Shown: piece by piece, positions 3,436-21,332 of the stretch
How the letters are laid out: each line of letters opens with the position of its first letter
Numbering within the stretch: the first letter of the stretch is position 1
Origin: a virus
IMG/VR virus record: IMGVR_UViG_3300009603_000056
Location: 1 to 25,156 of that record
Length of the DNA stretch: 25,156 bases
Direction: 5' to 3' (one strand)
The notes under the pieces: model-generated
Told to the model about the DNA's origin: nothing
Seen by the model: only the letters and a program-made list of their open reading frames with translations
Database searches by the model: none
Translations under genes and position numbers: made by a program

Positions 3436-3621
3436 ATGCTGAATTTAACCAGAAAGCCCGGAGAAACCATCAACATCGGCGATGACATCACCGTCACCGT
3501 ATTGGCCGTGAAAGACAACCAGGTGAAGCTTGGTGTCAATGCTCCGGATGACGTCAAAGTCTTCCGGGAAGAAATCTATCTGCGGATTCAGAATGAGAAT
3601 ACGCCTGATGACGCCGCTTAA
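3436..3621 (+). CDS. csrA: Phage-encoded CsrA/RsmA RNA-binding regulator
   Basis: CsrA is a small dimeric protein that binds GGA motifs in mRNA leaders and alters translation or stability. The product is 61 aa, the same length as E. coli CsrA, and nearly colinear with it. Leu4, Arg6 and Arg44, which line the RNA-binding surface in the host protein, are present, with Lys for Arg at position 7; the segment REEIYLRIQ is typical. I chose the ATG at 3436 because GAGGA (3423-3427) is well spaced. An in-frame extension back to 3349 exists but is not typical of the family. The gene sits between the replication genes and rusA, whose start overlaps its end by 14 nt. It could redirect host metabolism or control phage mRNAs. 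Confidence 0.93.
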
Positions 3622-3995: not shown

Positions 3996-4349
3996 GTGAC
4001 AACAACGAAAACAAACAGCGTGTGGGAACAGGACTTAATCGAAATCATCGGGGAGGTAGCGCTACTCAAACTGGAAGCCCGTTTCGGGGGCTCGTACTTA
4101 CACGTTCATGTCGAACCGAAAGAAGAAGTGATTGCCGCCATTGGGAAGTCAGCAGCTGCAAAACTCAGCGCTGAATGTGGTGGCCTCGATGTCTACGTGC
4201 CGACCATTCTCTGGCGCATGAGGCGTAACGAGTCTATCGAGAGGGAACAAAACACGGGTAGAACAATCACTGAGCTCGCTTCAAAGTACCGGCTACACGC
4301 AAAGCATATCAAAAAGATCCTACGCGAGAGGCACGGTTACAATGTTTGA
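3996..4349 (+). CDS. Mor-family transcription activator
   Basis: In phage Mu, Mor is a dimeric activator that turns on the middle promoter and leads to late gene expression. This 117-aa product matches Mor over its whole core: the dimerisation part with ECGGLDVYVP (Mu: GGGQVYIP) and the C-terminal helix-turn-helix GRTITELASKYRLHAKHIKKIL (Mu: GRNVSELTTRYGVTFNTVYKAI, broken here at the same residues). It starts at a GTG with AAAGGAG upstream. It lies just before the lysis and packaging genes, where lambda would have the Q antiterminator, so it is a good candidate for the late-operon switch. Its coding sequence contains an 18-nt match to the repeated leader element (4244-4261). Confidence 0.88.
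   Translation: MTTTKTNSVWEQDLIEIIGEVALLKLEARFGGSYLHVHVEPKEEVIAAIGKSAAAKLSAECGGLDVYVPTILWRMRRNESIEREQNTGRTITELASKYRLHAKHIKKILRERHGYNV
4244..4261 (+). repeat. 18-nt copy of the leader element inside the mor-like gene
   Basis: GGAACAAAACACGGGTAG is identical to 20653-20670 and differs at one base from 10693-10710. Here it encodes Glu-Gln-Asn-Thr-Gly-Arg at the start of the helix-turn-helix. One base later comes ACAATCAC, which also follows the intergenic copies, there after a 21-nt spacer. A chance 18-nt match in 25 kb is very unlikely. Confidence 0.75.
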
Positions 4350-5938: not shown

Positions 5939-6430
5939 ATGGCAGCGACAAAGCGAACACCCGACCAGGTAATGCGGGACCAGGCAAGTATTGCTGAGAT
6001 GTACCTCAAGGGCTTCAAGATGTTTGAAATCGCTGATGCGCGTGGGCTTTCAATGAATCAGGTTAAGTACGACCTGAGAGAGGTTCGTAAACGTTGGCGT
6101 CAGAGCTCTGTGCGTGACTTTGATGCGCACCGTGAAGAGCAGCTTGCTCGGTTAGACCTGATGGAAGCATCTCTCTGGCGTGAGTGGGAACGTTCGTGTG
6201 GTAACCCTGAACTTGATAAAGAGCCAGGTTTAGAGGGGCCACCGCAGACCGGAGACCCGCGCTACATGACTGTCATGCTGAACATCATTGAGCGCCGCAG
6301 TAAACTCCTTGGTCTGGATGCGCCAACCAAACTGGCTCCGACTAACCCTGATGGTGACGAGCCGTATAAGCAAGTCGCTCCTGATGAAATAGACGCACGG
6401 ATCCATGAGCTACTGGCTAAGTTGGGGTAA
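5939..6430 (+). CDS. Terminase small subunit
   Basis: The small subunit recognises phage DNA for packaging and delivers it to the large ATPase subunit. The 163-aa product has an N-terminal helix-turn-helix (about residues 18-50, MFEIADARGLSMNQVKYDL), a central helical oligomerisation part with LARLDLMEASLWREWERS, and a C-terminal tail that probably contacts the large subunit. It directly precedes the large terminase, whose ATG overlaps its last base. A DNA-binding N-terminus plus this position make the call fairly secure. Confidence 0.8.
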   Translation: MAATKRTPDQVMRDQASIAEMYLKGFKMFEIADARGLSMNQVKYDLREVRKRWRQSSVRDFDAHREEQLARLDLMEASLWREWERSCGNPELDKEPGLEGPPQTGDPRYMTVMLNIIERRSKLLGLDAPTKLAPTNPDGDEPYKQVAPDEIDARIHELLAKLG

Positions 6431-10222: not shown

Positions 10223-10687
10223 ATGTCAATAGAAGTCGCAGTTTCTGTTTTATTCATTATCTCATCCATATTTTTGCCAATAAAAGTACTGATAATCCTA
10301 TTTTCAAAACCTAAAACTCTTAACGTAAAGGATAATAAACACTCTCGTCAGTTTTTCATATCAAATGCAGGTGCATCCTTAAGAACCTCCATGGCTATAT
10401 CTATAACTTGGATGGTAATAACTAATAAACTTTATCAAGACGACTCCTCTTGGAGCACGTTTTTGGATACTCAAAATGCGATAGAGTTTATTGCTTCTAT
10501 ATCGTTAATTCTTTGTGTATCAGGAATTATGGGGGTTATAAGTGGTCGTCGGGAGTCGGTTTCGGAGGGAGAAGATTGGAATGGTCTAAGTCCCAAAAAC
10601 TTCCTTGTTACACTTTATTGCCTAGTTCCTGTTTTTGCATACTATTTCGGGTTAGCATACCACTCGGTTGTTTTCTACTTTCATTAG
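10223..10687 (+). CDS. AT-rich inserted gene (moron) for a multi-span membrane protein
   Basis: The product is 154 aa with four hydrophobic stretches, at about residues 5-27, 52-67, 87-107 and 127-152. It is probably an inner-membrane protein. I do not recognise the family. The DNA is visibly richer in A and T than the flanking head genes, and the gene splits the otherwise contiguous Mu-like head block, as a moron would. It has a strong ribosome site (AGAGGAAGG) 10 nt after the gpF-like stop. Six nt beyond its stop begins one copy of the repeated leader element. A superinfection-exclusion or host-modifying role would fit the position but is unproven. Confidence 0.65.
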   Translation: MSIEVAVSVLFIISSIFLPIKVLIILFSKPKTLNVKDNKHSRQFFISNAGASLRTSMAISITWMVITNKLYQDDSSWSTFLDTQNAIEFIASISLILCVSGIMGVISGRRESVSEGEDWNGLSPKNFLVTLYCLVPVFAYYFGLAYHSVVFYFH

Positions 10688-10692
10688 AATAG

Positions 10693-10716
10693 GGAATAAA
10701 ACACGGGTAGTCACCC
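10693..10716 (+). repeat. Leader element, copy 1 (conserved 24-nt block)
   Basis: The block reads GGAATAAAACACGGGTAG followed by TCACCC. It matches 20653-20676 at 23 of 24 positions. It contains the partial dyad GGGT-AGTC-ACCC, suited to a dimeric binding protein or a tiny hairpin. After 15 variable bases come ACAATC and then a hairpin that ends one base before the next gene's ATG. Its function is unknown. Confidence 0.8.
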
Positions 10717-10736
10717 CAACCCCATAGGTTGACAAT

Positions 10737-10762
10737 CACGGCAGTCATAGAGGATTGCCGTG
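10737..10762 (+). promoter_or_regulatory. Hairpin presenting the ribosome site of the protease gene
   Basis: A perfect 7-bp stem (CACGGCA 10737-10743, TGCCGTG 10756-10762) has a 12-nt loop that contains the Shine-Dalgarno sequence AGAGGA (10749-10754). The ATG begins at 10764. There is no T-run, so it is not a terminator. A GGA displayed in a loop over the ribosome site is the classic arrangement for CsrA binding. Confidence 0.55.
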
Positions 10763-10763
10763 T

Positions 10764-11912
10764 ATGAAACGAATCAACATTTTTAAAACCGGGACGCATA
10801 CCAGTTCGAATGGTACGACCCTGGACTTTTCCGAAGATAAGCTTCAAGGCTCTGCTGAGTCTTACAGCCCATCCGTTCACGAAGCGCCAATCGTTATTGG
10901 TCACCCTAAAGATAATGGCCCTGCTTATGGCTGGGGTAAGTCTATGGAGTTTTCAGAGGGGAGTCTCGATGCTATCCCTGACCAGGTGAACGAAGACTTT
11001 TCCGAAATGGTTAAGAAGGGCTCCTTTAAAAAGGTCAGCGCCAGCTTCTACCTTCCTGATGCACCGAATAACCCAAGCCCCGGTAATTTGTACCTACGCC
11101 ATGTGGGCTTTCTCGGTGCTCAGCCGCCAGCGATTAAAGGCCTTGCTGCCGTCGACTTTGCTGAGCAGGAAGAGGGCGTGGTCGAGTTTGAAGAAGACTG
11201 GCGCACTTCTATGGATATGTCGTCTATCGCACAGATATTCAAAGCCATGCGCGAATTCATCATCGACAAGTTCAGCAAGGACGAAGCCGACAAAACCCTC
11301 CCGGATTACCTCATTGATGATTTACGAACGTCAGCGGAAGAGCGCCGCAAGGCAGAAGCCTCTCCGGTGACTGATTTTAGCGAAAGCGAAACTGACCCGG
11401 AGCACGATATGAAACTTCAAGAAGCGCTGGATAAGGTCTCTGACCTTGAAAGCAAAAACACTCAGTTAGAGTCGGACAAGCAAAGCCTTACCGATGAAAA
11501 CGAGTCGTTGAAATCAAAGGTTACCTCATTTACTGAAGCTGAAAACAAACGCCGCAAAGAAGCGTTAACAGCCAAGGTTGATGCATTAGTGAAAGACGGA
11601 AAGGTAACCCCGGCAGAGCGTGAAAAGGTACTTGCCTTCGCTGAGCGCCTGGGCGACCAGACCGTCGATTTTGGCGAGGCTGACGACCAAAAAGGCTTGG
11701 ATGCCCAGGCAGAGTATTTGAAGTCACTGGAAGAACGTAGCCCTGCTGTTGATTTTAACGAGCATTCTGGTGACGAAAACGGTGGTGACGAACCGCAAAC
11801 CGCTCAAAGCTTAGCTGCAAAAGCAGTCGAGTACCAGGAGCAACAACGTAAGGCCGGCCGCAATGTTTCTATTGCTGAGGCGGTTAATCATTTATCTAAA
11901 GACGCGGAGTAA
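10764..11912 (+). CDS. Mu-like prohead protease with fused scaffold (gpI-like)
   Basis: It probably shapes the prohead and matures it by proteolysis. I use the ATG at 10764 (382 aa), with AGAGGA upstream, rather than an in-frame TTG at 10755. Residues 1-130 form the protease-like domain, with VSASFY near 91-96 and the typical LRHVGFLGAQPPAIKGL at 111-127. Residues about 217-262 are a coiled coil suited to scaffolding. The acidic tetrapeptide pattern D/E-F-x-E recurs along the chain (near residues 21, 62, 131, 141, 204, 302 and 330), which is unusual. It precedes the decoration and capsid genes, as in Mu-like phages. Confidence 0.85.
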   Translation: MKRINIFKTGTHTSSNGTTLDFSEDKLQGSAESYSPSVHEAPIVIGHPKDNGPAYGWGKSMEFSEGSLDAIPDQVNEDFSEMVKKGSFKKVSASFYLPDAPNNPSPGNLYLRHVGFLGAQPPAIKGLAAVDFAEQEEGVVEFEEDWRTSMDMSSIAQIFKAMREFIIDKFSKDEADKTLPDYLIDDLRTSAEERRKAEASPVTDFSESETDPEHDMKLQEALDKVSDLESKNTQLESDKQSLTDENESLKSKVTSFTEAENKRRKEALTAKVDALVKDGKVTPAEREKVLAFAERLGDQTVDFGEADDQKGLDAQAEYLKSLEERSPAVDFNEHSGDENGGDEPQTAQSLAAKAVEYQEQQRKAGRNVSIAEAVNHLSKDAE

Positions 11913-19435: not shown

Positions 19436-19693
19436 ATGTCAGGTAAACAGAAAAAGCTCGAGAAGCTACTCGAGCGCCCTAAAACGATGAAATTCAAGGA
19501 CGTCGTTTCGGTCTTAGAGTCTGTTGGTTTTAAGGTTTATGGTGGGGGGAACCACGGCAAAGCATATCACCCAGAATATGATGTGGTGATTATATTAGCT
19601 GATCCTCATCCAAAGAAAGACTGTAAAAAGTATTTCATAAACCAAGTTGTTAACCTTCTGGAAGAACTCAGAATCAAGGAAATTTCAAAATGA
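19436..19693 (+). CDS. hicA: HicA-family toxin
   Basis: HicA toxins are small mRNA-cutting enzymes with a double-stranded-RNA-binding-like fold. The 85-aa product has the key pattern GGGNHGKAYHP (His40 as the likely catalytic histidine) and the typical end DPHPKKDCKKYFINQVVNLLEEL. The ATG at 19436 has no recognisable Shine-Dalgarno sequence, unlike its neighbours, which may keep toxin levels low. It overlaps hicB by 4 nt (ATGA). This is the first gene of an AT-richer three-gene cassette between tape measure and tail-tip genes. Confidence 0.82.
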   Translation: MSGKQKKLEKLLERPKTMKFKDVVSVLESVGFKVYGGGNHGKAYHPEYDVVIILADPHPKKDCKKYFINQVVNLLEELRIKEISK

Positions 19694-20178
19694 GCTTGCT
19701 CGAATATAGAGGCTACCATGGCACAGCAGAGGCTTCGCTAGAAGACGACTGCATGGCTGGTACAGTTTTACATGTACAAGATAAAATTGTTTATTTCGGT
19801 GACACCGTAGCTGAACTGCGCGCGAGCTTTGAAAAAGCGGTAGATGATTATTTGGAGTTTTGTGAAGAGGTTGGTAAAAAGCCAGAGAAGCCATTCTCCG
19901 GGACTTTGAATGTCCGTCTTGGTAAGGAGTTGCATAGAAATGTAGCCATTAAGGCCCGTGCCAAGGGTGTTAGCATAAATGAATATGTTGTCCGTGCTTG
20001 CTCTGATTATGTAAAACACGATGGTGTTCACAAAAGTCACGTATTCAATCATATATATAACTTTGAGACCGAAAAGCGCTCTCAAGTTGAGAATAGAGTC
20101 ATCGAACCTAAAAAGTTAACTTCAGATCAAGGTGGATCGGGATGGAAAAGTCAAAAGCCGCAACTCAAAGTCCTTTAA
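19690..20178 (+). CDS. hicB: HicB-family antitoxin with C-terminal extension
   Basis: HicB binds and neutralises HicA and usually represses its own operon. The 162-aa product has the HicB core at residues 4-68 (YRGYHGTAEASLEDDCMAG then DTVAELRASFEKAVDDYLEF), and an Arc-type ribbon-helix-helix at about 70-108 (GTLNVRLGKELHRNVAIKAR then SINEYVVRACSDYV). Residues 109-162 are an extra, probably disordered tail not needed for either domain. In toxin-antitoxin-chaperone systems such a tail makes the antitoxin depend on a SecB-like chaperone, and a SecB-like gene follows. AAGGA (19676-19680) gives it a good ribosome site inside hicA. Confidence 0.87.
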   Translation: MSLLEYRGYHGTAEASLEDDCMAGTVLHVQDKIVYFGDTVAELRASFEKAVDDYLEFCEEVGKKPEKPFSGTLNVRLGKELHRNVAIKARAKGVSINEYVVRACSDYVKHDGVHKSHVFNHIYNFETEKRSQVENRVIEPKKLTSDQGGSGWKSQKPQLKVL

Positions 20179-20639
20179 AAATATCTGACTTCAAACATAC
20201 ATACATGTTTGTGAACAAATCGGCATTTGAATATGATAGAGAAACTGTTGAGTCCCAATCTGAAAATACGTCAATGAGCCTAGACTTAGGGTTGGCTATA
20301 TCAGGTTTTGACTTTATAAAAGAAAAAGAAGAATGTGTTTTATTGGTCGGTTGGGAAGCAAGAGTTAAGGGGTTAATAGGCGATGTTGAGCAAACCTCTG
20401 ACGAGAAAAGTGAAACACAGTTAGAACAGGTTTTTGAAGCCAGCGTGGGTTTTGATCATGTTTATAGTGTTCCAACGAGCTATTCAAAAGTAGGTGAAAA
20501 GGAGCTTGCTCGCTTTTTTGAAGAGAATGAAGCTAGTTTTAGACCTATCGCAATAGCATCTGCGACAAACACTTTAAAGAGCTTACTGCTTAATACCCCT
20601 TTAGCAGGATTACGTATACCTTATGGAATTGACATGTAA
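20142..20639 (+). CDS. SecB-like chaperone, probable third partner of a HicAB-type TAC module
   Basis: SecB-like proteins hold unfolded clients. In toxin-antitoxin-chaperone (TAC) systems the chaperone protects the antitoxin. The 165-aa product has the SecB pattern: an N-terminal PLKISDFKHTYMFVNKSAF, alternating beta strands (MSLDLGLAISGFDF, CVLLVGWEARVKG, QVFEASVGFDHVYSV), and the C-terminal helix and tail FRPIAIASATNTLKSLLL then PLAGLRIPYGID, like the SecB end with its Pro, Leu and Asp pattern. It overlaps hicB by 37 nt, exactly over the hicB extension, with AAGGTGG upstream. The family call is from memory of patterns, not from a search. Confidence 0.68.
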   Translation: MEKSKAATQSPLKISDFKHTYMFVNKSAFEYDRETVESQSENTSMSLDLGLAISGFDFIKEKEECVLLVGWEARVKGLIGDVEQTSDEKSETQLEQVFEASVGFDHVYSVPTSYSKVGEKELARFFEENEASFRPIAIASATNTLKSLLLNTPLAGLRIPYGIDM

Positions 20640-20652
20640 AGTACCTGCTCAC

Positions 20653-20676
20653 GGAACAAAACACGGGTAGTCACCC
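20653..20676 (+). repeat. Leader element, copy 2 (conserved 24-nt block)
   Basis: GGAACAAAACACGGGTAG followed by TCACCC differs from copy 1 (10693-10716) by one base. It starts 13 nt after the SecB-like stop. As in copy 1, 15 variable bases lead to ACAATC at 20692-20697, with the same spacing, then to a hairpin directly before a structural gene. Outside the two 24-nt blocks, ACAATC and the hairpin position, the sequences differ. Confidence 0.8.
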
Positions 20677-20697
20677 AGCACTAAAATTCCCACAATC

Positions 20698-20728
20698 CAG
20701 CCATTGTCGTTTAATTACGGAATGGCTG
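20698..20728 (+). promoter_or_regulatory. Hairpin directly before the first tail-tip gene
   Basis: A perfect 8-bp stem (CAGCCATT 20698-20705, AATGGCTG 20721-20728) encloses a 15-nt loop. The ATG starts at 20730, one base after the stem, exactly as at 10737-10764, though the stem sequence is different. GGA (20719-20721) sits at the 3' side of the loop. No T-run follows. Confidence 0.55.
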
Positions 20729-20729
20729 A

Positions 20730-21332
20730 ATGCCCGCAAATTTCCCAGAAATACCAAGAACGCGGTCCGGCTTTAAAATACAGCCGGCGACTCGCCTTAT
20801 CCGTTCCCCGTACAACCAGGTAGAAGAAATCTGGGAGGAACCGGGGGATATGTGGCAGGCACGCCTCGGGTTTTCATTTCTGACAAAAGCTGAAGCGCGT
20901 GAACTGCGAGTTGCACTTACCAGTTTGCGTGGCCATGTTGGCACTTTGTTTATTCACGATACTGCGCATAGTAACGAAGGCAGTTGGAACGGTGTGCCAG
21001 TTGTTGATGGAATGGACGAATATGGCGTTACTTTGAACGTCCGGAACTTTGCCGTTTCTCAGGTTGTTGCTAAACGTGGAGACCGCTTCCAGCTCAACAA
21101 CCGACTGCATGAACTTACCGAAGACGCTTTAAGCGATGGTACAGGGCGTGCGTTACTGACATTCCAGCCCGAAATTAAAACTATCCCAGTAGATGGTGAT
21201 CCCATCATAAGTGATGAGCCTAAAGGTTTATTTCGGCTATCCAACCCAAATCAAATCCCTGATTGGTCCGGTACTAAAGCTGGTGTTCGCAATGTCCAAA
21301 TAGAGTTTGTGGAGGCACTCAGTGAGGTTTAG
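20730..21332 (+). CDS. Tail-tip protein, probable distal tail-type component
   Basis: This 200-aa product is encoded first in the tail-tip block after the tape measure and cassette. The N-terminal half (SGFKIQPATRLIRSPYNQVE then LTKAEARELRVALTSLRGHV) and beta-rich C-terminal half resemble the small tail proteins that attach below the tube in siphoviruses. I do not recognise a precise family. It is followed with an 11-nt overlap by another tail-tip gene. Its start is set by the ATG at 20730, just downstream of the hairpin element; the ribosome site is weak. Confidence 0.65.
   Translation: MPANFPEIPRTRSGFKIQPATRLIRSPYNQVEEIWEEPGDMWQARLGFSFLTKAEARELRVALTSLRGHVGTLFIHDTAHSNEGSWNGVPVVDGMDEYGVTLNVRNFAVSQVVAKRGDRFQLNNRLHELTEDALSDGTGRALLTFQPEIKTIPVDGDPIISDEPKGLFRLSNPNQIPDWSGTKAGVRNVQIEFVEALSEV

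Follow-up and report, generated by a model that had tools for sequence, protein, structure and literature searches.

Three predicted Mor/C-type late promoters in a Mu/B3-type phage of Idiomarina, two of them overlapped by hairpins at start codons

The phage and its relatives

The window, by which we mean the whole 25,156-bp stretch of DNA analyzed here, is a linear virus record belonging to a Mu/B3-type phage of Idiomarina. Pfam and PHROG assignments identify repressor, lambda P-like, RusA, CsrA, Mor-family activator, lysis, terminase, portal, Mu F, and I-type protease genes, together with head genes and tail genes of the siphovirus type, and all genes from position 1187 onward lie on one strand. 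The features around the three sites discussed below, named Plys, PI, and PP after promoters of phage Mu, include the following genes and gene cassettes.

3436 to 3621, plus strand: phage CsrA, a possible translational regulator (Pfam CsrA, E = 3e-25; NCBIfam PRK01712)
3996 to 4349, plus strand: Mor/C-family activator of late transcription, presumed to act on all three promoters (Pfam PF08765, E = 9.3e-10; PHROG 836, E = 2.2e-20)
10223 to 10687, plus strand: exchangeable cassette before PI, a small membrane protein according to a sequence-only reading of the window (comparison of genes with relatives)
10764 to 11912, plus strand: head maturation protease/scaffold gene, Mu I-like (PHROG 976, E = 1e-113)
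19436 to 20639, plus strand: exchangeable cassette before PP, with HicA, HicB, and a third gene (Pfam HicA/HicB)
20730 to 21332, plus strand: distal tail protein gene, which opens the PP unit (PHROG 1302, E = 4e-33)

The gene at 5939 to 6430 carries the PHROG family name “RNase E”; its place directly before the large terminase subunit suggests that it encodes the small one.

Close relatives comprise three viral contigs (L038 to L040) and prophages of Idiomarina and Pseudidiomarina (L041 to L044). L048 is a distant relative (protease 49% identical), and Pseudomonas phage B3 is among the more distant ones (34%). The Mu F protein of L048 (2156 to 5776) has 1,206 amino acids versus 238 in the window, resembles MuF-fused polymorphic proteins, and has a long C-terminal part without a Pfam match; about 4 kb of small genes separate it from the protease promoter.

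A repeated box followed by a −10 hexamer at three sites

A 24-nt block is repeated with one mismatch at 10693 to 10716 and 20653 to 20676, where the sequence-only reading had placed it, and its part AAAACACGGGTAGTCACCC is identical at 10698 to 10716 and 20658 to 20676 (expected in shuffled sequences, 0). The equal spacing which that reading reported also holds, as ACAAT begins 30 nt past the first base of CACGGGT at both sites. Its count of two was incomplete, since a third copy at 4243 to 4287 had been overlooked; in a weight-matrix (PWM) scan this copy ranked directly after the two known sites with a score of 31.2. It lies within the Mor-family gene, ahead of the lysis region, and has neither a cassette nor a hairpin abutting an ATG. 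The same scan places it at the equivalent position in L038 to L043, L045, and L046, and it is also found in L048. The 24-nt block itself is present in the window, but its TCACCC part is not kept in the sister phages: L042 to L044 retain only GGAAnAAAACACGGGTRG, followed by nAMAAT at a fixed distance. The core conserved among the window and its sister phages is GGAAnAAAACACGGGTRG plus a −10 hexamer, CAMAAT, exactly 22 nt after the box. A search of Rfam gave no match to a curated family in the window, and the likeness to start-associated repeats of mycobacteriophages is not required to account for the element.

4243 to 4287, plus strand: third copy, a Plys-like predicted late promoter with box GGGAACAAAACACGGGTAG, spacer, and −10 hexamer CAAAGT; predicted +1 at 4294 (PWM scan)
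10693 to 10710, plus strand: PI activator box with the conserved core GGAATAAAACACGGGTAG, placed by prediction at −50 to −33 (conservation over 11 sites; exact match, chance test)
10731 to 10736, plus strand: PI −10 hexamer GACAAT; predicted +1 at 10743 (conservation peak; spacing scan)
20653 to 20670, plus strand: PP activator box, conserved core GGAACAAAACACGGGTAG (exact match, PWM scan, conservation)
20691 to 20696, plus strand: PP −10 hexamer CACAAT; predicted +1 at 20703 (PWM scan, conservation)

The +1 positions are predictions, set seven bases after the −10 hexamer. Over 11 sites from four lineages conservation shows two peaks only, at −49 to −33 and −12 to −7, with a flat spacer between them; the repeated box lies upstream of and overlaps the −35 position, and a −10 hexamer is present while a −35 hexamer is absent. 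The choice of a −10 in any single sequence was too noisy, and a scan anchored on the box settled the spacing: for 13 boxes of dereplicated relatives the sigma70 −10 score was +2.1 at 22 nt and at most −3.3 at other spacings. Other relatives carry boxes of the form YRCGGKT in sequences that otherwise differ, and at 22 nt, and at no other spacing, these are followed by TACATT, TATAAA, TACAGT, or TACTCT. The arrangement of a box, 22 nt, and NANNNT occurs in 8 of 45 upstream regions versus 0.14 in shuffles. The PP site of L048 has the 22-nt spacing if shifted by one base.

In whole records, seven relatives have three exact AAAACACGGGTR sites per phage, and the L048 record has three sites with one mismatch, one of them within mor; the I. 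loihiensis chromosome holds one extra exact match elsewhere (G005:C1:470143). The three boxes of a phage vary jointly, with GGAAYAAAACACGGGTAG in the window group and GGAAAAAACACGGGTG in L042, L043, L045, and L046, as is expected for sites of one protein. Each of the eight relative records searched has a single Mor-family gene in its phage region, and PHROG 836, to which the window gene belongs, is annotated as “late transcriptional activator.” The activator gene carries the presumed site for its own product in its C-terminal coding part, an arrangement conserved down to L048. Because this Plys box sits in coding sequence, part of its conservation could be protein-driven.

Several candidates were set aside. 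The dyad GGGTAGTCACCC is present in the window group, but it was rejected as an operator because L042 to L044 do not keep it. Exact-pattern matches in other viral contigs were mostly chance or belonged to other genes. A fourth, mom-like site was not found in the phage records scanned, and candidates in G003 and G004 were taken as coincidence, lying inside the avd-like gene of a diversity-generating retroelement. Such an apparent retroelement lies near the right end of L133 (53 to 2681) and L134 (6 to 2634), where a variable-type target protein, an avd-like gene, and a reverse transcriptase were identified by eye from translations. The element is absent from L140 to L149, other phages whose tail gene is 60% identical, and there the coding sequence of the preceding gene extends up to the tail gene.

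The C protein of Mu serves promoters ahead of lys, I, P, and mom, and its half-sites differ from the box sequence of the window phage. The sites of the window phage precede the lysis, I-type, and P-type gene blocks (genes by PHROG), so that with the third copy ahead of the lysis region the set matches Plys, PI, and PP of Mu; the P-block match is by place only, since the tail gene encodes a siphovirus distal tail protein. These places in the gene order (lysis, protease/scaffold, tail) are the same as in Mu, where Plys, PI, and PP depend on C and Pm on Mor, and in both phages the lysis region closely follows a Mor-family activator gene (PMC4287176, PMC4461284). Mor of Mu recognizes a dyad spanning −51 to −36 and works without a −35 hexamer (PMC4287176); the box of the window phage is at the Mor position, again with no conserved −35 (PMC4287176, PMC4461284). 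In view of this close fit to Mor/C features of Mu, we take the element to be a late promoter set of the Mor/C type. Unlike in Mu, one activator seemingly serves all three promoters, Plys lies inside the activator gene, and PI and PP bear a hairpin over the promoter.

On these comparative grounds it is almost certain that the 24-nt block and the ACAATC following it form a late promoter, which bears out the earlier suggestion of a late-operon restart element. Family, position, and the joint change of boxes between phage groups make it very likely that the phage's own Mor/C-family protein activates the three promoters (Plys at 4243, PI at 10693, PP at 20653). This protein would bind the GGAAnAAAACACGGGTRG box about 35 to 50 nt upstream of the start and recruit host RNA polymerase to the CAMAAT −10 hexamer without a −35 element.

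Cassettes upstream of PI and PP

Similarity between the phages begins at the first bases of the box, and the cassettes stop at the left edge of the element. The cassette place before PI holds other small open reading frames in L038 to L041 and is empty in L042 to L044. Before PP, the HicA-HicB pair and the third gene are common to the window and L041, absent from L042 and L043, and replaced by other genes in L039 and by a two-gene unit in L038 (18946 to 19912), L040 (19092 to 20094), and L044 (11712 to 12972). The second protein of this unit has an RNCVSRAYY motif like that of HEPN proteins (by eye), and the unit is perhaps another toxin-antitoxin pair.

The description of the element as placed after each inserted cassette fits the window, but L042 and L043 hold both sites with no cassette upstream. 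Since these cassette-free relatives keep the element, it is not a component of the cassettes; that reading was rejected, as was a recent duplication, because there are three sites per phage that are retained without cassettes and change jointly. The proposal that the repeat is a recombination site through which foreign genes enter draws on the differing cassettes of close relatives, on homology beginning with the first bases of the box, and on the usability of near-identical boxes as short homologies. That cassettes vary and end at the box lends this indirect support, but the element persists without a cassette in L042 and L043 and within mor, where there is no insertion, and a fixed 22-nt spacing to a −10 hexamer serves nothing in recombination, so we consider such a role highly improbable. 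The near identity of the two 24-nt blocks of the window would fit a single duplication devoid of function, but this reading has practically no chance of being right: each of seven relatives has three sites, an eighth has a looser set, the sites of a phage change jointly, and beyond the box and the −10 they are not homologous to one another. The simplest account of the cassettes is that a transcription unit tolerates added genes at its end, immediately ahead of an independent promoter, and that they gather there because the unit end directly precedes a promoter sufficient in itself.

Hairpins directly before the start codons

10737 to 10762, plus strand: PI hairpin, 10-bp stem (10737 to 10746 with 10753 to 10762) and loop ATAGAG; ends 1 nt before the ATG at 10764
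20698 to 20728, plus strand: PP hairpin, 8-bp outer stem CAGCCATT/AATGGCTG; ends 1 nt before the ATG at 20730

Both stems end one base ahead of the ATG, as previously noted. The 8 bp reported for the second stem is correct, while the first has not 7 but 10 bp, one of them G-U (CACGGCAGTC/GATTGCCGTG). The PI hairpin includes the Shine-Dalgarno (SD) sequence AGAGGA; the stem itself takes in just part of the SD in the window. The PP stem is extended inward in the predicted fold. Local fold z-scores are −4.8 for the PI hairpin and −3.0 for the PP hairpin.

It had been argued that pairing is kept while bases change; the two stems of the window could not show covariation, but the wider family does swap its stems. 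Swap and shuffle tests took the place of a covariance model, because the arms show no sequence conservation. A strong stem ending 0 to 3 nt before the protease ATG is found in 19 of 45 dereplicated relatives, a count from related phages that are not fully independent, versus a mean of 3.9 and a maximum of 8 in dinucleotide shuffles of the protease upstream regions (100 rounds). At the strictest cut, 8 stems are observed versus 0.44 in shuffles. The excess vanishes once the required end point is shifted by 8 nt, and 24 other genes of the same phages yield stems in 10 of 238 cases. When the 5′ portions are exchanged between phages, the 19 falls to a mean of 6.0 (maximum, 14; 300 rounds). The stems have no common sequence; examples are those of L044 (ATAGCGTCAA/TTGGCGCTAT), L054 (CTGCCCACTTGT/ACAGGTGGGCAG), and L090 (GGCGCCCG/CGGGCGCC).

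Phage B3 has a 6-bp stem, GCCGCC/GGCGGC, directly before a protease ATG, and the protease stems of L092 and L094 are similar to it. B3 differs in that the box is not recognized and in its annotated protease start, a CTG ten codons upstream of the ATG that follows the stem (L123, 8858 to 8890); this ATG is the likelier start. PI of Mu has a CTGCTCA/TGAGCAG stem separated from the ATG by six or seven bases, between which and the stem the SD is found.

The PI stem is broken in L042, L043, and L046 (z-score of L042, −0.4; the L045 sequence equals that of L042), and the PP stems of L042 (−0.7) and L044 (−1.1) are weak, so the hairpin is not strictly required. Judged from these counts and swaps, the hairpin before the head protease is under selection across many Mu/B3-type phages, which supports the idea of a translation control element.

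Proposed gating of translation

At both PI and PP the hairpin overlaps the promoter, with the predicted −10 in or between its arms. The 5′ arm would fall at the −10, discriminator, and +1, and the 3′ arm would lie between the SD and the ATG or take in part of the SD. This placement should leave the 5′ arm out of the promoter's own RNA, and the assumption that the hairpin is part of the element's own RNA is probably wrong. Folding of PI in the window group gave −24 to −27 kcal/mol for read-through RNA versus −5.2 for the promoter's own RNA, in which the AUG is predicted to be weakly paired; for PP the values are −13 to −19 and −3 to −6 kcal/mol, respectively. In read-through RNA a predicted stem includes or closes off the SD and start at the window sites and at PI of L044, and is weak or absent at PI of L042. 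Read-through from the early genes is plausible because of the one-strand gene order and because no strong plus-strand terminator-like site was found between the early genes and PI.

Read-through RNA from upstream genes would thus hold both arms and keep the protease and tail start regions closed, while RNA from the late promoter, lacking the 5′ arm, would leave them open, which would limit synthesis of protease/scaffold and tail proteins to the late phase. Points against such gating are the broken PI stems and weak PP stems noted above, the partial inclusion of the SD, the weak pairing of the AUG in the promoter's own PI RNA, the lack of an ATG-abutting hairpin at Plys, and a strong stem in fewer than half of the distant relatives. 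We consider hairpin-based gating somewhat better than an even bet, and we assign a probability of roughly 0.75 to the account as a whole, namely, three Mor/C-type promoters with hairpin gating at PI and PP.

A start closed by RNA structure is also known for mom of Mu, a late gene dependent on C; there the hairpin forms in RNA made from the gene's own promoter, and Com is needed to open it. Unlike in mom, the 5′ arm in the window phage is predicted to be missing from RNA that starts at the promoter. Phage T4 offers a nearer likeness: the starts of genes e, soc, 49, and I-TevI are sequestered in an RNA helix, long transcripts of gene e are shut while late transcripts without the 5′ part are translated, and in I-TevI the 5′ part of the structure adjoins the late promoter (PMC3014915). 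By analogy, the hairpin of the window phage would close the start on read-through RNA, with the late promoter predicted to lie at the 5′ arm. T4 is an unrelated phage that uses the sigma factor gp55, whereas here host sigma70 and a Mor-type activator would act; in the window phage the hairpin recurs before structural genes, and its gating is a prediction.

The overlap of hairpin and promoter depends on where transcription starts. If transcription began 6 to 10 nt further upstream, the late mRNA would begin with the hairpin, which might guard it against decay or set its translation level. TAGGTT is indeed the best consensus −10 when PI of the window is considered alone, giving RNA from the first base of the stem, and TAAAAT, located upstream at PP, would likewise leave the entire hairpin at the start of the RNA. 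These hexamers lie at unequal distances from the box, however, and neither the L042 sites nor PI of L044 have them, whereas the 22-nt spacing is kept in the sites of the group and is the unique peak in other phages. Moreover, in L070 and L048 the 5′ arm is upstream of the box-anchored −10 and cannot be in that promoter's RNA. We therefore judge an upstream start unlikely. Slightly less credible still is that the hairpin is the RNA target of a phage translational regulator, in the fashion of Com and mom, e.g., of phage CsrA through a GGA in the loop or SD. CsrA is encoded by the window phage and conserved in those Idiomarina relatives whose early region is present (61 to 96%), and all group members have GGA at the PI SD. 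GGA is expected at an SD anyway, though; PP of L044 lacks it, PI of L042 has it without a hairpin, and no CsrA gene was detected in distant hairpin-bearing loci, which are fragments. CsrA is carried by about 1% of phages, where its role is unknown (PMC7366521), and the SD-overlapping hairpins of the window phage are candidate CsrA targets.

Implications

The promoter set is mostly an ordinary Mu-type core, to which the selected start-codon hairpin around the promoter is a less ordinary addition. The odd repeat thereby becomes a defined late regulon, comprising three sites with predicted starts and an activator that can be named. In L059, L070, and L091 the box-anchored −10 (TACAGT or TACATT) ends 7 to 8 nt before the protease ATG, and the protease mRNA of these phages is predicted to be leaderless or almost so.

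We propose tentatively, with the odds slightly against it, that in Mu/B3-type phages the late promoter of the protease commonly lies inside a start-codon hairpin of freely changing sequence, so that the choice of transcription start acts as a translation switch. We found no earlier description of hairpins over late promoters in these phages in the open-access literature. If true, this would be a general, so far undescribed timing device in a large phage group, and some lineages would have near-leaderless mRNAs. Phages unrelated to T4 would then, provided that the gating holds, have reached the same trick, in which the position of a promoter decides whether an RNA can be translated.
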